A DNA stretch of 64,000 bases, from NCBI GenBank assembly GCA_012837705.1, contig DUQQ01000109.1:1-64000 (forward strand), in the 5' to 3' direction. The stretch is from Hydrogenispora sp. (GTDB taxonomy: Bacteria; Bacillota; UBA4882; UBA10575). Each line of letters opens with the position of its first letter. The first letter of the stretch is position 1. The notes under the pieces are model-generated. The model was not told the DNA's origin. It made no database searches and saw only the letters and a list, made by a program, of their open reading frames with translations. The translations under genes and the position numbers were made by a program. This document shows, piece by piece, positions 12,872-20,679 of the stretch.

Positions 12872-13186
12872 CAAAAAAACCCCTCATCCCATAGGGACGA
12901 GAGGCTCGTGGTGCCACCCTACTTCTCCCTGCAAACGCAGGGACTTAGTGACCCGGAAACTGGTGTCCGGATCGAATCGTAACGGATTAGCTCCGGCCGG
13001 AATTACTGACCGCCCCGCGCCCCAGGCGCCTGCGGGTTCCTTCCGACAGCTCCAGACCGGGAAATGTTCTACCGCCGGTACAGGCTTCCACCACCCGCCT
13101 GCTCTCTAAAACCCAAACGATAAAACCGAGTCCTTCCTCGCTTTTATCCAACCATACTGTATATTTATTCTTCCGCATTAATATTA
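12872..13186 (-). promoter_or_regulatory. T-box leader of serA (probably serine-specific)
   Basis: The antiterminator consensus AGGGTGGCACCACG is at 12907-12920 (minus strand). The competing terminator is an 11-bp stem at 12880-12904 followed by a T run at 12872-12879. Stem I begins near AGCGAGGAAGGACTCGG with an AGAGAG bulge. A TCC triplet at 13060-13062, just before CGGTCTGGAGC, is in the expected specifier place and encodes serine, which fits the target gene. The specifier assignment is inferred from layout, without folding. Confidence 0.9.
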
Positions 13187-13364: not shown

Positions 13365-15335
13365 CTAACCCACAACGATCTGGTAGTCATTGTCGATGGA
13401 TTCGTCTTGGTCCAGCCAGTTAAGGTTCAGCCGGTAAACACCCTTGGTCATCAGCATCACTGAGACTTCACCAAGGATGCGGGTTTCTTCGTCCGGCTGG
13501 GGTTTTACGTTCCATTGCTCTTTCCAGACCAGTTGCCCCCGGGGGTCGGTCAGCCGGGCTTTCACCAAAACCGTCGGTTGGTCGGGGCCGATCCGGTCAT
13601 TGCTGAAACAGATCGGAGCCTGGAAAAGGGTGCCGTTCCGGTAGTTTTCCCGGGGTAAAAGGGCAAAGACGTAGACCGGCCTGTAACATAGGGCGACCAT
13701 GGCAAAACCCTCCTTGGGCTGGCCACTACCATTCACCACCGACCAAGACAGACCCGGGTCAAGCGCACGGAAACAGAAGAATAGCATGCCACCGGTGGGG
13801 TTATATTTATGAAAGCGCAACCGGTCAATGTAAAAGCGCAGGGTTTCCGCCAGTTGTTTTTGGCTACGGGTGCGCGTCTTTTCATCGGGTTCGGCCGGTC
13901 CGAGTGCCGCCCGCCCGAACCAGGAGACAAAACGGATCTGACGTTGTTTAGCGCCCCGCCGGTACTGGTCAAACCGGTAGATCTCGTCCGGATACTGGTA
14001 GTTAAAGCCGGTGTCAACCGCCTCCCGTAGTGACCCCTGGCCCGAAAGGGGGATCACCGGCCGTCCCGGATCAAGTTCTGCTAAGCGTTGGGCTAATTTT
14101 TGCACCACCCGTCGGAAGTTGACACTGGGCCGCTCCGGTACCAACGCTTCAAACCCGCTTTGGTTGCTGATCGTCCAGATCGCTACCGAGGGGTGGTTTC
14201 CCAATAGGTTATAGACCGCTTCCACCTGTTGCAAAAGGTTGGTCAGATTGGTAAAGGTCGCACCGACCGGCAGGGGGAAATCTTGCCAAACAAGAATCCC
14301 GGCCTCATCCATAGCCTGGTAAAACTCGGGCTTTTCTACGTGTTGGTAACAGCGCACCATATTCTGGTGGCTCTGCTTTAAAAGGGCGATCTCCTGCTCG
14401 TAATCTTCCTTCCCCACCTTACTCAGGTAAAGCGCGGGGGGAAGATAATTACTCCCTTTCACCAGTAAACGTTGGCCATTAAGATAGGGGATCATGTTCT
14501 GGAGGGTAAAAGTCCGGATCCCAAAAAGAGTCTCCTGGGCATCCCACGTCGCGCCCGCCGCCTGCAACGTCAGGCTGGTCTGGTAGAGGCAGGGTTGCCC
14601 CCGGTCCCAGGTCTGCCAGGGACGGACTCCGTGGAGCGTAAAACGGGCCTCATATTGGTTGGTCCCCTTCTCTAGTTGGAGGGGGAAGACTTGCTGGTAA
14701 CTTTGACCGTCAAATTTATGGGGGGTGAGTTGTAGTTGGACGTTGATCGCGGCGGACCGGACCGCGTAGACTTCCAGCTTTAAGCTGAGGGTTGCTTCAT
14801 CCCCCGCCAGTTCCTCCGTGTGTAAATGCCAGCGTTCGATGAAAGCCGGACCGCTGCTTAGAATCCGGACCGGTCGCCAGAGGCCACCAGGGTTAAACCC
14901 TTTCGGAAGCGTGGGATGGCCCGCAAAAAGTCCGGTTATAACCGGTGCGGTCGCTTCATTCCCTTGTTCCCCGGGCGATTCTACCTCCAAGAGGATTTGG
15001 TTCTCTGCCCGCAAATAAGGGGTGATGTTGTAGTAGGCAGGATAAAAATAACCCTCTTGGCCCCCAATGGCATAGTTATTGAGGTAAACACGATATTTGT
15101 AGAAGACGCCCCCGATCTCCAAGCGGTAAATCCGGTCTGGTTCCGGTGTAAAATTAAAATTACGACGATAGACCATTTTCCCAGCATACCCGGAGAAGTT
15201 CTCAAGCTCCTGCCATTGACCGGGAATCTCCTGCTCGACCCATCCTTCGTTGGGAACCTCCTCACTCCACCAGAGGCTACTAAACTCCGCTACCGGATGT
15301 AGTTCCCAGGTCCCACCCAAATCCATCTTTGCCAA
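13365..15335 (-). CDS. GH2-family protein lacking both catalytic glutamates
   Basis: About 656 residues in the GH2 layout: jelly-roll sugar-binding domain (LGGTWELH to ILLEVESPG), immunoglobulin-like domain ending TLFGIRTF, then a TIM barrel from LNGQRLLVKGSNYLP. The acid/base motif, normally N-E after HPSVxxW, reads NHPSVAIWTISNQ, with CAA coding Gln at 14160-14162. The nucleophile motif, normally SEFG or TEYG, reads RFVSWFG, with TGG coding Trp at 13920-13922. Hydrolysis by the GH2 mechanism therefore looks impossible. There is no signal peptide. A TTG start at 15335 is preferred because GGGGGGAG lies 7 bases upstream; the ATG at 15326 is the alternative. It follows thiQ in the same direction with no clear terminator between. 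Confidence 0.8.
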   Translation of the reverse strand: MAKMDLGGTWELHPVAEFSSLWWSEEVPNEGWVEQEIPGQWQELENFSGYAGKMVYRRNFNFTPEPDRIYRLEIGGVFYKYRVYLNNYAIGGQEGYFYPAYYNITPYLRAENQILLEVESPGEQGNEATAPVITGLFAGHPTLPKGFNPGGLWRPVRILSSGPAFIERWHLHTEELAGDEATLSLKLEVYAVRSAAINVQLQLTPHKFDGQSYQQVFPLQLEKGTNQYEARFTLHGVRPWQTWDRGQPCLYQTSLTLQAAGATWDAQETLFGIRTFTLQNMIPYLNGQRLLVKGSNYLPPALYLSKVGKEDYEQEIALLKQSHQNMVRCYQHVEKPEFYQAMDEAGILVWQDFPLPVGATFTNLTNLLQQVEAVYNLLGNHPSVAIWTISNQSGFEALVPERPSVNFRRVVQKLAQRLAELDPGRPVIPLSGQGSLREAVDTGFNYQYPDEIYRFDQYRRGAKQRQIRFVSWFGRAALGPAEPDEKTRTRSQKQLAETLRFYIDRLRFHKYNPTGGMLFFCFRALDPGLSWSVVNGSGQPKEGFAMVALCYRPVYVFALLPRENYRNGTLFQAPICFSNDRIGPDQPTVLVKARLTDPRGQLVWKEQWNVKPQPDEETRILGEVSVMLMTKGVYRLNLNWLDQDESIDNDYQIVVG

Positions 15336-15454: not shown

Positions 15455-16534
15455 TTATTTCTGGTTTATGGGGAGCAATTTCAAAGCGGGTTCCCGGAAG
15501 GAGAGCCCTACCCGCGCCCCCAGCGCAAAATGGGTCTCTTTTCCGGTCAAAATTTTAAGCGTTGGCCCGTGGTCGGTTTTCACCTCCGCATAGGAAGCGT
15601 ACCCCAGATACTCCCAGGTCACAATCGTCCCCTGGTAAATGGGCGCCACGGTGTCGATAACCACATCTTCGGGGCGGATCATCATGTAGAAATGCGCGTT
15701 AGTTGTGTCCGTCTCTCCTCCTTGGACCATGTGGCCTCCCGTATCCGAAAGGTTGAAAACCCGACCGCCCTGGGGATGAAGCTCGAGTCCCTCTGCGGTG
15801 GGAACGGCCACGCACGGAATCAGGTTGGCATCACCGAGAAAGGTCGCTACAAAGGGGTGCGCCGGACTCGAATAGACCTCGGTTGCCGTTCCCACCTGAA
15901 GAATCTGACCGGCTTGCATCACCGCCAACCGTTCCGAAAGGGAAAGGGCCTCCTCCTGCTGGTGCGTGACGAAGATGGCGGTAAAGCCCAGTTTCCGCTG
16001 GAGCTCTTTCAGTTCACGCCGGAGACGCCGCCGCAAACCGTAGTCGAGAGCGGCAAAAGGCTCATCCAGTAAGAGAAGGAAAGGTTCGGGCGCAAGGGCA
16101 CGGGCCAGCGCCACCCGCTGCCGTTCCCCGCCGGAAAGTTCTTGTACCCGGCGGCCAGCCAACTCCGTAATCTCGAAGACCGCCAGCATCGCATCGACCC
16201 GTTCCCGCCGTCGCGTGGCGGGCAGACGCCGGACCTTTAGACCGTATTCAATGTTTTCCCCGACCGTCAAGTGGGGAAAGAGCGCATAATCCTGAAAAAC
16301 AAAACCGATCCGCCGTTCAGCTACGGGGACCGCGGTCAGGTCCTGCCCGTTGAGGATGATCCGGCCCCGGTCGGGCTGGATCAAGCCGGAGATCAAACGA
16401 AGGAGGGTCGTTTTCCCACAGCCACTGGGCCCGACCAGCGAAAAAAACTCTCCCTCGGCCACAGTCAGGTTGGCAGTCAACCGAAACTCCGGGTAGTCTT
16501 TGACGACATCAATCTGCAAAAATTCGTTCTTCAT
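15455..16534 (-). CDS. thiQ: ABC transporter ATPase, thiamine/iron type (ThiQ-like)
   Basis: A 359-residue importer ATPase with all nucleotide-binding motifs: Walker A GPSGCGKTTLL, Q-loop FVFQDYALFPH, signature LSGGERQRVALARAL, Walker B LLLLDEPFAALD and switch His in VTHQQEEAL. A C-terminal TOBE-like regulatory domain (about 240-355) is present, which E. coli ThiQ lacks. By itself it would be called an iron/sulfate-type ATPase. The thiamine role comes from the thiB and thiP genes directly upstream and the TPP riboswitch in front. It starts 3 bases after the thiP stop, with GGGGGGAG as ribosome site. Confidence 0.85.
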   Translation of the reverse strand: MKNEFLQIDVVKDYPEFRLTANLTVAEGEFFSLVGPSGCGKTTLLRLISGLIQPDRGRIILNGQDLTAVPVAERRIGFVFQDYALFPHLTVGENIEYGLKVRRLPATRRRERVDAMLAVFEITELAGRRVQELSGGERQRVALARALAPEPFLLLLDEPFAALDYGLRRRLRRELKELQRKLGFTAIFVTHQQEEALSLSERLAVMQAGQILQVGTATEVYSSPAHPFVATFLGDANLIPCVAVPTAEGLELHPQGGRVFNLSDTGGHMVQGGETDTTNAHFYMMIRPEDVVIDTVAPIYQGTIVTWEYLGYASYAEVKTDHGPTLKILTGKETHFALGARVGLSFREPALKLLPINQK

Positions 16535-16537
16535 CGT

Positions 16538-18184
16538 TTACTCCCCCCAACGCCCGCCAGTCCCCTTACCACGGTAACCCCCCTCGACCAAAGAAAAGAG
16601 CACCACCGCCAGCAGCATAAAGAGGGTTCCGAGGGCAATCGCCTGCGGAAAATTATAATGGCCGATTAAGCGGTAGACCGCCACTGCCAGGGTGATCACT
16701 TTCCCCTGGCCTAACACCAAAACCGCCGAGAGATCGCCAAGCGAGAGGGCGGCCCCGTAAGCAAAAGCACTGCTCAGTGCTTTCCGCATCAACGGCAGTT
16801 CTACCGTGCGGAAGAGTTCCCACCCGGACGCACCTAAACATTGGGCCGCTTCGATCATCTCCTCCCCCCATTCCCGCCGCGCGGTACGGAGTAACGCATA
16901 GACCAGGGGGAAAGCCAGAAAGACCTGGGCCCAAATGATTAAAAGCGCCGGTGGCAAGGCATGTCCAACCAGTTTTAACAGGCCAAAAGCAAACGTCAAG
17001 AAGGAAATCCCCATTGGCAATTGTAGCCACAGGTCAATCCGTCCCCATGGTTTTTGCCGCCGCTGGCGGGCCAGCACATAAGCGAGGACCATCGTCACCA
17101 GCCCCACCGTGATCGCCAAAGCCAGACTGGTCCCGACCACCGTCCATAAATCGCGCCCTACAGCAAAACGGAAACCTGCCCCGAAAAGTTGCCGGTAGTT
17201 GTCCAAGGTCCACGCACCGTCGGGAAGCCCCCTTTTTTTAAATGACCGGTAGAGGACAAAAAACAAGGGCATAAAAAAGAAAAGCAGACTTCCGGCCAGA
17301 TAGCAAAGGAAGATTCCCGTCGCGACCGGCTGTTTTCTCGGTCGCAACGGCGGTAGGAGGTTAACTTCGCCGCTTTGCCTCTGAACCAGCCGCTGGGTCC
17401 ACCGCTGCAAAGCGATGATCCCGGTCAGCAGAAAAATTTGTACTACCGCCAGCATCGAAGCCTGCGCAAAACGGAGTTTATTATTGTATTCGATATAAAT
17501 CAACACTTCAAAGGTCTGGTACAGATAGCCCCCCAGCACCAGAACGACGGTAAAACTGAGGAACGAATAGAGGAAAACCAGGACCCCTAGATAGCCAATG
17601 GTCGGGGCCAAAAGCGGCAGGATCACCCGCCACCAGGTGGCGAACCGCCCTGCCCCGAGCACGGCCGAGGCCTCTTCCAGTTTGGGACTGATCCGCTCCC
17701 AGCGTTCCCCCAACATCCGAAGGCAAAAGGCAAAGTTATAGAAGACGTGTGCGAGAATAATCCCTTTATACCCATACAACCCGGTAAAGACCAGGTCTCG
17801 TCCAGGAAAGAGCGCTGCCAGCCAGGTGTTGAGAATACCGTTTTGCCCGTAAAAGACGACCATCGCCAGGACGACCAAGATCCCCGGAAGCATAAAGGGG
17901 AGAATCATCACACTCCGGAGGAGCCGTTTCCCCGGGAACCGGTAGCGGCCGAAAAAATAGGCCCCGGGAACGGCCAGGGCTAAACTGAAAAAGGCGCTCC
18001 AAAAGGCCTGGCTTGTACTGAAGGCCAAAACGCGCCGAAACTGCCCAGATCGGAGAAAGCCCAGCAGCTCTGGCCAGGCGTTTGGGCGTCCGAACGCCTG
18101 GCCGAGGACGGCGAGCACCGGAAGGAAAAAAAGACCGATCAGGATTAGGGCTAAGCAGTTTGGCCTGTTTCTGGCGCCGCTCAT
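16538..18184 (-). CDS. thiP: ABC transporter permease, thiamine type (ThiP-like)
   Basis: A 548-residue double permease with about twelve membrane segments in two similar halves, as in ThiP and FbpB. Each half carries an EAA-type loop that contacts the ATPase: EASAVLGAGRFATWWRVILP in the first and EAAQCLGASGWELFRTVELP in the second. The ATG at 18184 overlaps the thiB stop by four bases (ATGA), a typical coupled arrangement. It should form the channel for the substrate delivered by ThiB, energised by ThiQ. Confidence 0.87.
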   Translation of the reverse strand: MSGARNRPNCLALILIGLFFLPVLAVLGQAFGRPNAWPELLGFLRSGQFRRVLAFSTSQAFWSAFFSLALAVPGAYFFGRYRFPGKRLLRSVMILPFMLPGILVVLAMVVFYGQNGILNTWLAALFPGRDLVFTGLYGYKGIILAHVFYNFAFCLRMLGERWERISPKLEEASAVLGAGRFATWWRVILPLLAPTIGYLGVLVFLYSFLSFTVVLVLGGYLYQTFEVLIYIEYNNKLRFAQASMLAVVQIFLLTGIIALQRWTQRLVQRQSGEVNLLPPLRPRKQPVATGIFLCYLAGSLLFFFMPLFFVLYRSFKKRGLPDGAWTLDNYRQLFGAGFRFAVGRDLWTVVGTSLALAITVGLVTMVLAYVLARQRRQKPWGRIDLWLQLPMGISFLTFAFGLLKLVGHALPPALLIIWAQVFLAFPLVYALLRTARREWGEEMIEAAQCLGASGWELFRTVELPLMRKALSSAFAYGAALSLGDLSAVLVLGQGKVITLAVAVYRLIGHYNFPQAIALGTLFMLLAVVLFSLVEGGYRGKGTGGRWGE

Positions 18185-19197
18185 TCGTTGATCACTTGCT
18201 CCCAAGCCGACAGCCACCGCTCAAGATTGGCCGCCACCTCAGCGGGTGGAAGATTAAACAACCGTTCGGCCTGAGCAGCCACCCGGAAGCTCGGTGGTAA
18301 CTCCAGATCACTACGCACCGGGTACATAAACTGGGTTTCCGGGATCAGGGACTGGAACGCGGGGGACAGAACGTAATCAACCAGGCGTTGGGCATTCTGC
18401 AAATGAGGCGTCCCCTTCACGATCCCAACCCTTTCAATCTGGGCATAAGCACCGCCATCAAGGACCAACGCCTTGTACCGCTCGGTCCCCTCCGCAATCA
18501 GATGGTAAACCGGACTGGCCCCGTAAGAGACCACCAGCGGAACCTCGCCACTGGTAAAGATCCCGTAGGCTTCGTCCCAGCCCGGAGTGATAGTAAGGAG
18601 GTTCGGCTTTAAAGCCCGCCAGAAATCAAGGTAGCCGTCTTCGCCAAAGAGGGCGATCGTCGTCAAAAGAAAGACTTGTCCCGGGGAAGACGTCAGCGGG
18701 TTCTCCACAACAATCTTCCCTTTGTACTCCGGATCGAGGAGATCCCGGTGGGAAGTGGGGATCCGCGTCAAACGTTCACTATCATAGTTGAAGACCACAT
18801 ACCCGTAGTCAAAGGGGGTCAGGTGAAACTCGGGATCAAAAATCAGATCGGGACGAATCCGGTCCGCGGCTTGTGGTCTGTATGGTGCGAGAATCCCTAG
18901 CTCCAAAGCCTTCGGTAAATAATTATTGTCGAGGCCAATCACCACATCACCCTGGGGATTCTTCTTCTCCTGCGCTAACTGGTTCAGGAGCGGCCCCGTG
19001 TCGGAGAACGACCGGAATTCCACTTGAACACCGTATTCTGCTTGGAAATGGTCGACGATCTGCTCAATCAAAATTGGGGGGAAACTGGCATAAGTGTACA
19101 CGGTCAGCGGTCTCTCCGGCCGACCGAAACAGCCGCTCAAGAACAGCGCAAATACCAACACCAGAACCAACGGAAAACCCCATTTTCTTAAAACCAT
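18181..19197 (-). CDS. thiB: Thiamine ABC transporter substrate-binding lipoprotein (ThiB-like)
   Basis: A 338-residue solute-binding protein. The N terminus is a lipoprotein signal with lipobox FLSGC, so it should be anchored outside the inner membrane. The mature part begins LTVYTYASFP and contains DVVIGLDNNYL, FDYGYVVFNYD, TSSPGQVFLL and VVSYGASPVY, all typical of thiamine-binding ThiB/TbpA. GGAGG precedes the ATG at 19197. It is the first gene after the TPP riboswitch, which strongly supports thiamine or a phosphate ester as the substrate. Confidence 0.9.
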   Translation of the reverse strand: MVLRKWGFPLVLVLVFALFLSGCFGRPERPLTVYTYASFPPILIEQIVDHFQAEYGVQVEFRSFSDTGPLLNQLAQEKKNPQGDVVIGLDNNYLPKALELGILAPYRPQAADRIRPDLIFDPEFHLTPFDYGYVVFNYDSERLTRIPTSHRDLLDPEYKGKIVVENPLTSSPGQVFLLTTIALFGEDGYLDFWRALKPNLLTITPGWDEAYGIFTSGEVPLVVSYGASPVYHLIAEGTERYKALVLDGGAYAQIERVGIVKGTPHLQNAQRLVDYVLSPAFQSLIPETQFMYPVRSDLELPPSFRVAAQAERLFNLPPAEVAANLERWLSAWEQVINE

Positions 19198-19242
19198 TAA
19201 TAATTCCTCCTTACGGGATGCGAACACGGAACCAGCACTAAA

Positions 19243-19346
19243 GAAAAAACCCCCACAAAAGGGGGATCTCTCCTACTTCTCCCTACGCCGGCATTACCCG
19301 GATCAGGTTCCAAGGGTATAATCTCAGCCCTGTCGAGCACCCCTTT
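19243..19346 (-). promoter_or_regulatory. TPP riboswitch (THI element) with terminator
   Basis: On the minus strand the sequence carries the THI-box hallmarks: GGGGTGC, CAGGGCTGAGAT, ACCCTTGGAACCTGATC and GGGTAATGCCGGCGTAGGGA. The aptamer covers about 19280-19346. A stem CCCCC-TTTTGT-GGGGG (19250-19265) followed by TTTTTT forms the terminator just before thiB. Bound thiamine pyrophosphate should favour termination and shut the importer off. Confidence 0.95.
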
Positions 19347-19358
19347 TAATTTACACCT

Positions 19359-19387
19359 ATCGTACCATATTTTATGCCTTGGGGCAA
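19359..19387 (-). promoter_or_regulatory. Candidate promoter of the thi transcript
   Basis: TTGCCC and TACGAT separated by 17 bases, ending about 13 bases before the TPP aptamer. The match to consensus is partial. The site overlaps the 3' end of ispDF. Confidence 0.4.
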
Positions 19388-20679
19388 GAAAAAGAAGTCA
19401 TCGCCATGAGGACCACCGCCTGGGCGGCAATTCCTTCCTCCCGCCCGGTAAAACCTAAACCTTCCGTGGTTGTTGCTTTCACATTGACGGCGGTCTCCGC
19501 TAGTCCCAACAGTTTAGCCAACCGCTGCCGGATCTTGACCCGATACGGGGCCAGCTTGGGTTTTTGCGCAATCACCGTCACGTCCAAATTAACTGGTTTA
19601 AAGCCCACCGCTCCCAGCTTGACCACTACTTCCCTTAAAAGCAGGGTACTGTCGATCCCGGAATAAGCCGGATCAGTATCGGGAAACAGTTCTCCGATAT
19701 CGCCAGCACCAGCCGCCCCCAGGAGGGCATCGGTCACAGCGTGGGTTAAAACATCCGCGTCGGAATGGCCGGCCAGGCCGACCGGCGCATCGATCTCCAC
19801 CCCACCCAAGACCAACCGGCGCCCCTCCACCAGGCGGTGGACATCAAACCCTTGCCCGACCCGTAGCGCCGACTCCGCTCGTCGCCCCGGCGCCGCCGTT
19901 TCTTCCACTACCGACGGGGTCTTCTTACCCGTTTCTCCCGCCTGTAGCAAGGCCGTGGCCGCCGGTAAATCTTCGGGCGTAGTGATCTTGAGGTTCCGGT
20001 AGGACCCGGGAACGATCCGCACCGGGTGGCCCGTTCTTTCAACCAAAGCAGCATCGTCGGTCATTTTATCGTCGGCCAGTTTGGCCTGGGCGTAAGCCTT
20101 TTGCAGTACCGGCCAAGAAAAGACCTGGGGTGTCTGGGCTGCCCACAGCGTTTGCCGCTCCGGAGTTTGTCGAATCGTCCCTTCCGGCCCCACCACTTTA
20201 ATGGTATCTTTAACCGGAACCGCCACACAAGCCGCCCCGCTTTCTTGGGCCACGGCAAGGGCCCGACGGATGATCTCGACCTCCACCAACGGCCGGGCGG
20301 CGTCATGGATCACCACCAAACGCTGCGCCGGCGACACCCGCCAGCCCGGCCAACGGTCCACTTCCGCCAGGGCATTGGCGATCGAATCCTGGCGTTCCGG
20401 CCCGCCCGTGCAGAAAAACACCTCTTGTGCAATGCCGCCATCCTTGAGCTCTTCCGCAAAAAGCGCCCGGTCCTCCACCGCCACCGGAAGGAAAAAAGCT
20501 TCGATCTCCGGGAGGGCCAAAGCCTCTAGTGTACGCCGGAGAATAGTTTTCCCTGCTAGCGAAAGGAGCAGTTTCTGCCGCTCCGGCCCCCCCTTTATCC
20601 GCATCCGCCGCCCGGAACCGGCCGCCGGGATTATTGCCACGATCTGAACCGCGCTCAACCCATCCATCTTCATCACCAT
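19372..20679 (-). CDS. ispDF: Bifunctional IspD-IspF of the MEP isoprenoid pathway
   Basis: A 435-residue fusion. Residues about 10-240 are IspD (MEP cytidylyltransferase): AIIPAAGSGRRMR nucleotide loop, HDAARPLV, VPVKDTIK and AAQTPQVF. After a linker rich in Pro, Glu and Arg (about 240-275), residues 276-430 are IspF (MECDP synthase): RVGQGFDVHRL with metal ligands, GLAGHSDADVLTHAV, GDIGELFPD and the late TTTEGLGFTGR. In most Firmicutes these are two adjacent genes; here one frame runs through. Several in-frame ATG codons occur within the first five codons and no strong ribosome site is seen, so the exact start is uncertain. Confidence 0.93.
   Translation of the reverse strand: MVMKMDGLSAVQIVAIIPAAGSGRRMRIKGGPERQKLLLSLAGKTILRRTLEALALPEIEAFFLPVAVEDRALFAEELKDGGIAQEVFFCTGGPERQDSIANALAEVDRWPGWRVSPAQRLVVIHDAARPLVEVEIIRRALAVAQESGAACVAVPVKDTIKVVGPEGTIRQTPERQTLWAAQTPQVFSWPVLQKAYAQAKLADDKMTDDAALVERTGHPVRIVPGSYRNLKITTPEDLPAATALLQAGETGKKTPSVVEETAAPGRRAESALRVGQGFDVHRLVEGRRLVLGGVEIDAPVGLAGHSDADVLTHAVTDALLGAAGAGDIGELFPDTDPAYSGIDSTLLLREVVVKLGAVGFKPVNLDVTVIAQKPKLAPYRVKIRQRLAKLLGLAETAVNVKATTTEGLGFTGREEGIAAQAVVLMAMTSFSCPKA

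Follow-up and report, generated by a model that had tools for sequence, protein, structure and literature searches.

What role is left for a GH2 protein that has lost both of the glutamates with which its relatives cleave glycosides, and why is such a protein kept? The question is raised by a gene on the minus strand of the window, the 64,000-nucleotide stretch of a Hydrogenispora sp. contig analysed here. The gene, which we describe as encoding a GH2-fold pseudo-glycosidase, occupies positions 13365..15335 and specifies 656 residues from a TTG start at 15335 to a stop codon at 13365-13367. Membership of the product in GH2 as a sequence and fold family was evident from Pfam, where PF02836 scored 40.9 bits (cut-off 21) and PF00703 39.2 bits (cut-off 23), and from hhalign, which matched it to Glu-bearing relatives with 100% probability; PF02837, the model of the N-terminal sugar-binding domain, reached 24.2 bits, below its cut-off of 28. 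Among the 15 orthologues described below, PF02836 matched 13/15 and PF00703 15/15 at an E-value of 0.001.

The domain layout displayed the following regions, all on the minus strand: (i) an N-terminal jelly-roll domain of the sugar-binding type (residues 1-162; 14850..15335; located by Pfam and hhalign), which is the most conserved region within the family, with 40% of its positions invariant; (ii) an Ig-like domain (residues 163-280; 14496..14849), in which PF00703 matched residues 165-274; (iii) a TIM-barrel domain (residues 283-545; 13701..14489), identified by PF02836 at residues 283-428 and by full-length profile alignments; and (iv) a beta-rich C-terminal domain (residues 546-656; 13368..13700), which has a homologous counterpart at the C terminus of active relatives and is invariant at 36% of its positions. 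The initial annotation had described a three-domain fold that was otherwise intact. The GH2 fold itself was confirmed, but four regions are present once the C-terminal beta domain is counted, and the barrel is not intact: the loop past Trp472 is shorter in the window protein, where hhalign found no counterpart for 39 columns of the active relatives. A signal peptide was indeed absent, since the highest 19-residue mean hydropathy starting within the first ~40 residues was 0.10 and the hydrophobic N-terminal stretch of an exported GH2 enzyme is missing, export being judged here from hydropathy alone.

The catalytic columns were identified in four ways, namely by phmmer against PDB chains, by MAFFT alignments of the window family with GH2 relatives, by a profile compared with beta-mannosidase structures, and by hhalign against two separately built alignments of Glu-bearing relatives (one of nine relatives, the other of four mannosidase-like GH2 proteins). 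The reading frame, its strand and both codons agreed with the initial annotation: the position of the acid/base Glu, following the Asn at the end of strand 4, is occupied by Gln392 (CAA, 14160..14162, minus strand), and that of the nucleophile Glu on strand 7 by Trp472 (TGG, 13920..13922, minus strand). With phmmer, Gln392 was aligned to the Glu of WSGNNEDD in 9nfe; 9npn, a further entry of the same protein, has Ala at that Glu. The multiple alignments matched Gln392 to the conserved Glu in HNEP and Trp472 to that in [ST]EFG, and in hhalign both residues paired with the catalytic Glu columns of both targets at 100% probability. In 2vjx, the Glu residues aligned to Gln392 and Trp472 are chain positions 437 and 530, which, with an offset of 25, we take to be Glu462/Glu555, the catalytic pair in full numbering. 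Multiple and profile-profile alignments therefore concur that both glutamates have been replaced, and neither sequence nor profile alignment put another Glu at either position. A retaining glycosidase that lacks both carboxylates should not hydrolyse glycosides by the GH2 mechanism. Hydrolysis is thus not expected of this glycosidase homologue without catalytic residues, and, as far as its sequence can tell, the window protein very likely has no glycosidase activity.

The PDB sequence matches of the window protein are GH2 enzymes. A PDB search with a profile of 13 sequences from the window family and its relatives gave as best matches the GH2 beta-mannosidases 5n6u (318.8 bits) and 2vjx (268.7 bits), which aligned nearly end to end. 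With these enzymes and 2je8 the window protein shares the domain order, the barrel motifs KG.N and WQDF, and the Asn at the end of strand 4. In contrast, the GWDWG motif of mannosidase-like GH2 relatives is NPGG in the window protein.

An orthologue search of 61 genomes, plus 29 genomes of the class, detected the gene in 15/16 genomes of the window's bacterial family, whose members are uncultured, whereas the 13 other genomes of the class yielded no match at an E-value of 1e-30; all are assemblies, and several are incomplete. The one family member without an orthologue, G011, also has no match to the essential neighbour ispDF, so the absence of the GH2-like gene there is uninformative, and its assembly probably lacks the region; a GH2 paralogue in G011 has Glu at both columns. 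The initial annotation had proposed to look for orthologues with the same substitutions; the nucleophile substitution proved to be shared by all of them. Trp occupies the nucleophile position in 15/15 orthologues, against Glu in 16/16 active-type relatives, while the acid/base position is Q in seven, L in two and H, N, K, A, V or I in one each, and Glu in none. Both columns are Glu in 16/16 active-type relatives compared and in 0/15 family members; the double loss is a fixed trait of the family. The orthologues of G005 and G009 are each split across two contigs, and the longer piece was used. Kept outside the column counts and the tree described below were L082 (G349), which is broken by N and retains both Glu in its readable part, the remaining fragments L086 (G009) and L031 (G005), L087 (a copy of L075), L002 (a second GH2 gene of the window genome) and L023-L030 (weaker GH2 matches). 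Further relatives were sought in viral contigs, and none was confirmed there.

Among the eight genus members, dN/dS lay between 0.073 and 0.153 in 27 of the 28 pairs, the last pair giving no dS; together with the presence of the gene in 15/16 genomes, these values mark a pseudo-glycosidase kept by strong purifying selection. Constraint was concentrated in one part of the barrel. In the family alignment, eight strand-end segments (62 residues), which were picked by eye from homology with that alignment already in view, were 53% invariant, and the remainder of the barrel 15%. In 262 circular shifts, such invariance was never attained, and the entropy value was attained twice. Seventeen residues are invariant in the family yet absent at the same place from all 16 active-type relatives, including Q324, C329, E396, W472 and R523, and the new invariant residues sit at the C-terminal ends of the barrel strands. 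Glu396 (14148..14150, minus strand) is invariant in 15/15 orthologues and is Glu in no active-type relative; it is possibly a displaced acid. Arg523 (13767..13769, minus strand) is invariant in all 14 rows that reach it and is never Arg in the active-type relatives. Ser393 and Gly394 are likewise invariant in the family, each being present also in a few relatives. Several residues of the older site persist: Asn391 (14163..14165, minus strand), which belongs to the N-E motif of GH2, and His332 (14340..14342, minus strand) are kept in 15/15, as is Asp352 of WQDFP (14280..14282, minus strand), which is also found in all aligned relatives. Asp441 is present in 14/15 orthologues.

The invariant Trp, the shortened loop and the other pocket changes that have become invariant point to a remodelled pocket. 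As read from the alignments, this pocket is constrained; it appears neither to be decaying nor to be a frozen sugar site minus two residues. The initial annotation had spoken of a kept but inactive sugar-binding barrel. That the protein is kept, almost certainly non-glycosidic and cytosolic was upheld, but an intact sugar site was not. A predicted structure computed with six sequences (the window protein and L032-L036) had a mean pLDDT of 41.5, with most of the barrel below 50.

The loss of catalysis, the selection on the gene, the constraint on the pocket and the conservation of the beta domains together fit a ligand-binding, non-hydrolytic protein. On balance, we favor a cytosolic pseudo-glycosidase, i.e., a GH2-fold protein that binds a ligand without hydrolysing it and may have a partner-directed role as regulator or scaffold. 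The ancestor would have been a retaining beta-glycosidase of the mannosidase-like GH2 branch. Its two catalytic carboxylates would have disappeared no later than the root of the bacterial family, and the protein would then have been kept for a non-hydrolytic role. The remodelled pocket would bind the ligand and be lined by His332, Asp352 and Asn391, with Trp472 in the former place of the nucleophile, presumably filling the old -1 site, where it would be joined by the new Glu396 and Arg523. Such pocket geometry is suggested by the alignment columns. Occupancy of the pocket might then be relayed to a partner via the conserved N- and C-terminal beta domains. Ligand binding itself seems probable; signalling of occupancy to a partner is a more tentative proposal.

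A counterpoint to reading the protein as a ligand binder is that the carboxylates D352, E396 and D441, which are invariant or almost so, are found near the pocket by sequence. Because of them, the main rival is an enzyme that has been re-tooled for another reaction or mechanism, with Glu396 (after strand 4), Asp352 and Asp441 acting as migrated carboxylates and Trp472 and Arg523 serving in binding. The novelty and invariance of Glu396 and Arg523 and the high conservation of the strand-end loops agree with such an enzyme, and an excerpt of PMC10211241 documents migrated catalytic residues in pseudokinases. However, the family alignment contains no invariant carboxylate within eight residues of Trp472, and the residue at the former acid/base position varies freely between orthologues (Q, L, H, N, K, A, V, I). 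A re-tooled enzyme is rather unlikely.

A second alternative concerns the history of the losses. In a tree of 35 sequences, the 15 family sequences formed one clade (support 100/100) on a long stem of 1.0 changes per column, and their sister clade consisted of G242, G165 and G194, which have both Glu, together with G046. These three nearest outside relatives are ~34-36% identical to the window protein and come from other families of the phylum; they are uncharacterised cytosolic GH2 proteins that can be aligned end to end with it and have no signal peptide-like stretch either, but unlike it they retain both Glu, and their loop following the nucleophile is long. Overall, 17 rows of the tree have both Glu (the 16 active-type relatives and the G011 paralogue), the 15 family rows have neither, two rows of f128 have neither, and one Glu is lost in G046. 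The G046 protein (L071) carries Ser at the acid/base position and keeps the nucleophile Glu. The f128 GH2-like proteins (G329 and G370; L083 and L084; loci L099 6854-9025 and L100 7826-9934) have Lys and Asn at the catalytic positions. The f128 pair joins sequences of f60, which keep both Glu. The f128 genes adjoin a DUF4438 gene (Pfam), of which f60 has a look-alike as judged by eye, and these shared neighbours agree with the pairing of f60 and f128. A conserved gene without a Pfam match also lies beside the f128 GH2-like genes and near the f60 relatives. A homologue of the 'TNAYVYEELTG' gene was not found in the genome of the window, in a search run without a positive control, and a link of the window gene to the DUF4438 / 'TNAYVYEELTG' cluster of f60/f128 was set aside, as the homologue of this second gene was not found.

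At least three independent losses of Glu have apparently occurred on one GH2 branch, a count to be read with caution since the branches of f128 and G046 are long and f128 is unusual in composition. Such losses might be neutral: an ancestral cytosolic GH2 protein that was already non-catalytic would have allowed the window family and two other lineages to drop unused residues. The three apparently independent events, including those of f128 (Lys, Asn) and G046 (Ser) whose nearest relatives keep both Glu, would be in line with this. However, 16/16 other aligned relatives retain both Glu, which speaks for catalysis being under selection in most of these, and the f128 rows are long-branched and odd in composition. 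Neutral loss is improbable. The f128 proteins differ from the window protein in their substitutions and represent a separate loss.

The gene neighbourhood bears on a third alternative, that the protein works within a thiamine uptake unit, e.g., as a sensor expressed from the thiBPQ transcript. The order in the family is carD, a PIN/TRAM gene, ispDF, (thiBPQ), the GH2-like gene, (ilvBNC) and serA. In the window, a thiBPQ-like ABC transporter is located at 15455..19227 on the minus strand (ATPase 15455-16534, permease 16538-18217, binding protein 18181-19227), preceded by a TPP riboswitch (19261..19354, minus strand; RF00059, 66 bits) and by the ispDF fusion gene (19372..20679, minus strand; TIGR00453 and TIGR00151 above cut-off), an upstream neighbour that is constant in the family. 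The binding protein scored above the cut-off of TIGR01254 (266.6 vs. 93.4 bits), whereas the permease and ATPase matched the ThiP and ThiQ models only below cut-off. For the 'thiQ' ATPase (15455-16534), models of 2-aminoethylphosphonate and polyamine transporters outscored ThiQ, all those shown being below their cut-offs; a role in thiamine uptake is suggested for it by the binding protein and the riboswitch.

The GH2-like gene starts 120 bp after thiQ, and a consensus scan of this gap in the window found neither a terminator nor a promoter; thiQ adjoins the gene directly in 11/15 genomes (nine of them show all three thi genes, and in two a contig end cuts the set short). In G008, G009, G014 and G015, however, the GH2-like gene directly follows ispDF with no thiBPQ there, and constant association with thiBPQ and the riboswitch thus fails in 4/15 genomes. 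A deletion scar was observed in G008 (L044 6700-6760), where thiBP and the TPP riboswitch are missing along with most of thiQ. The last thiQ codons and the leader, as aligned to G013, are still present together with an intact GH2-like gene, demonstrating that the thiamine genes can go while the GH2-like gene stays. The earlier suggestion that the gene may be read from the thiamine transcript stands to the extent that read-through from thiQ is possible in the window; the functional tie was not supported, a conserved role as thiamine sensor or operon part was rejected on the basis of the four genomes and the G008 deletion, and this reading is very unlikely.

The other surroundings are housekeeping genes and point to no partner. 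ispDF lies upstream in 13/15 genomes, the contigs of G002 and G007 ending first, and its proximity may only reflect chromosome order. Several further features were observed nearby. In G010 (L046 10049-12237), a gene of the GH130 phosphorylase family (beta-1,4-mannooligosaccharide phosphorylases) and a LacI-like regulator gene directly follow the pseudo-GH2 gene; this is a hint from a single genome towards mannosides. Ahead of serA, the window carries a T-box leader at 12890-13147 (minus strand; 90.2 bits, just under the gathering score of 93 bits), preceded by a promoter-like site at 13221-13193 (minus strand) with a perfect TTGACA-17-TATAAT; in relatives, T-boxes that pass the gathering score are located ahead of ilvB or serA. 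A spoIVA homologue (L108, G000:C90:6082-7554; 705 bits) is present in the window genome, and on this ground the organism probably forms spores. A CATAGAAT-like stretch follows thiQ in several genomes; it is not evident upstream of the gene in G009, G014 and G015, and no claim of sporulation control is made.

The weakest alternative, a decaying relic or a sequencing or assembly artefact, has the absence of both catalytic residues in its favor but is hardly credible and was refuted by full-length frames that are intact except at contig ends, a dN/dS of about 0.1 and pocket residues that are invariant over 15 genomes from separate assemblies.

The favored reading, a ligand-binding pseudo-glycosidase, can be compared with known systems. 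YKL-39, the klothos and CyRPA are animal or protozoan proteins and act extracellularly or at the cell surface; the window protein is instead bacterial, cytosolic and of the GH2 family. In YKL-39 (GH18), the klothos (GH1-like) and CyRPA (GH33-like), glycoside hydrolase folds were kept after catalysis was lost and have binding roles, according to an excerpt of PMC7828330, in which the pseudo-glycosidases named belong to GH1, GH18 and GH33. A search of the open-access literature found no paper on a GH2 pseudoenzyme. Few pseudo-glycosidases have a known role, and a family-wide, selected and cytosolic case with relatives that keep both Glu would provide a clean pair for studying the function of a barrel after catalysis is lost. 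For metagenome annotation it is a warning that such genes should not be read as beta-galactosidases or beta-mannosidases. It is conceivable, if somewhat doubtful, that the GH2 barrel now serves the whole bacterial family in a new cytosolic activity or as a metabolite sensor, with a new pocket made of Trp472, Glu396, Arg523 and the Ser393-Gly394 turn. If this were true, the at least two further losses of Glu on that GH2 branch would represent a recurrent route from glycosidase to non-glycosidase.
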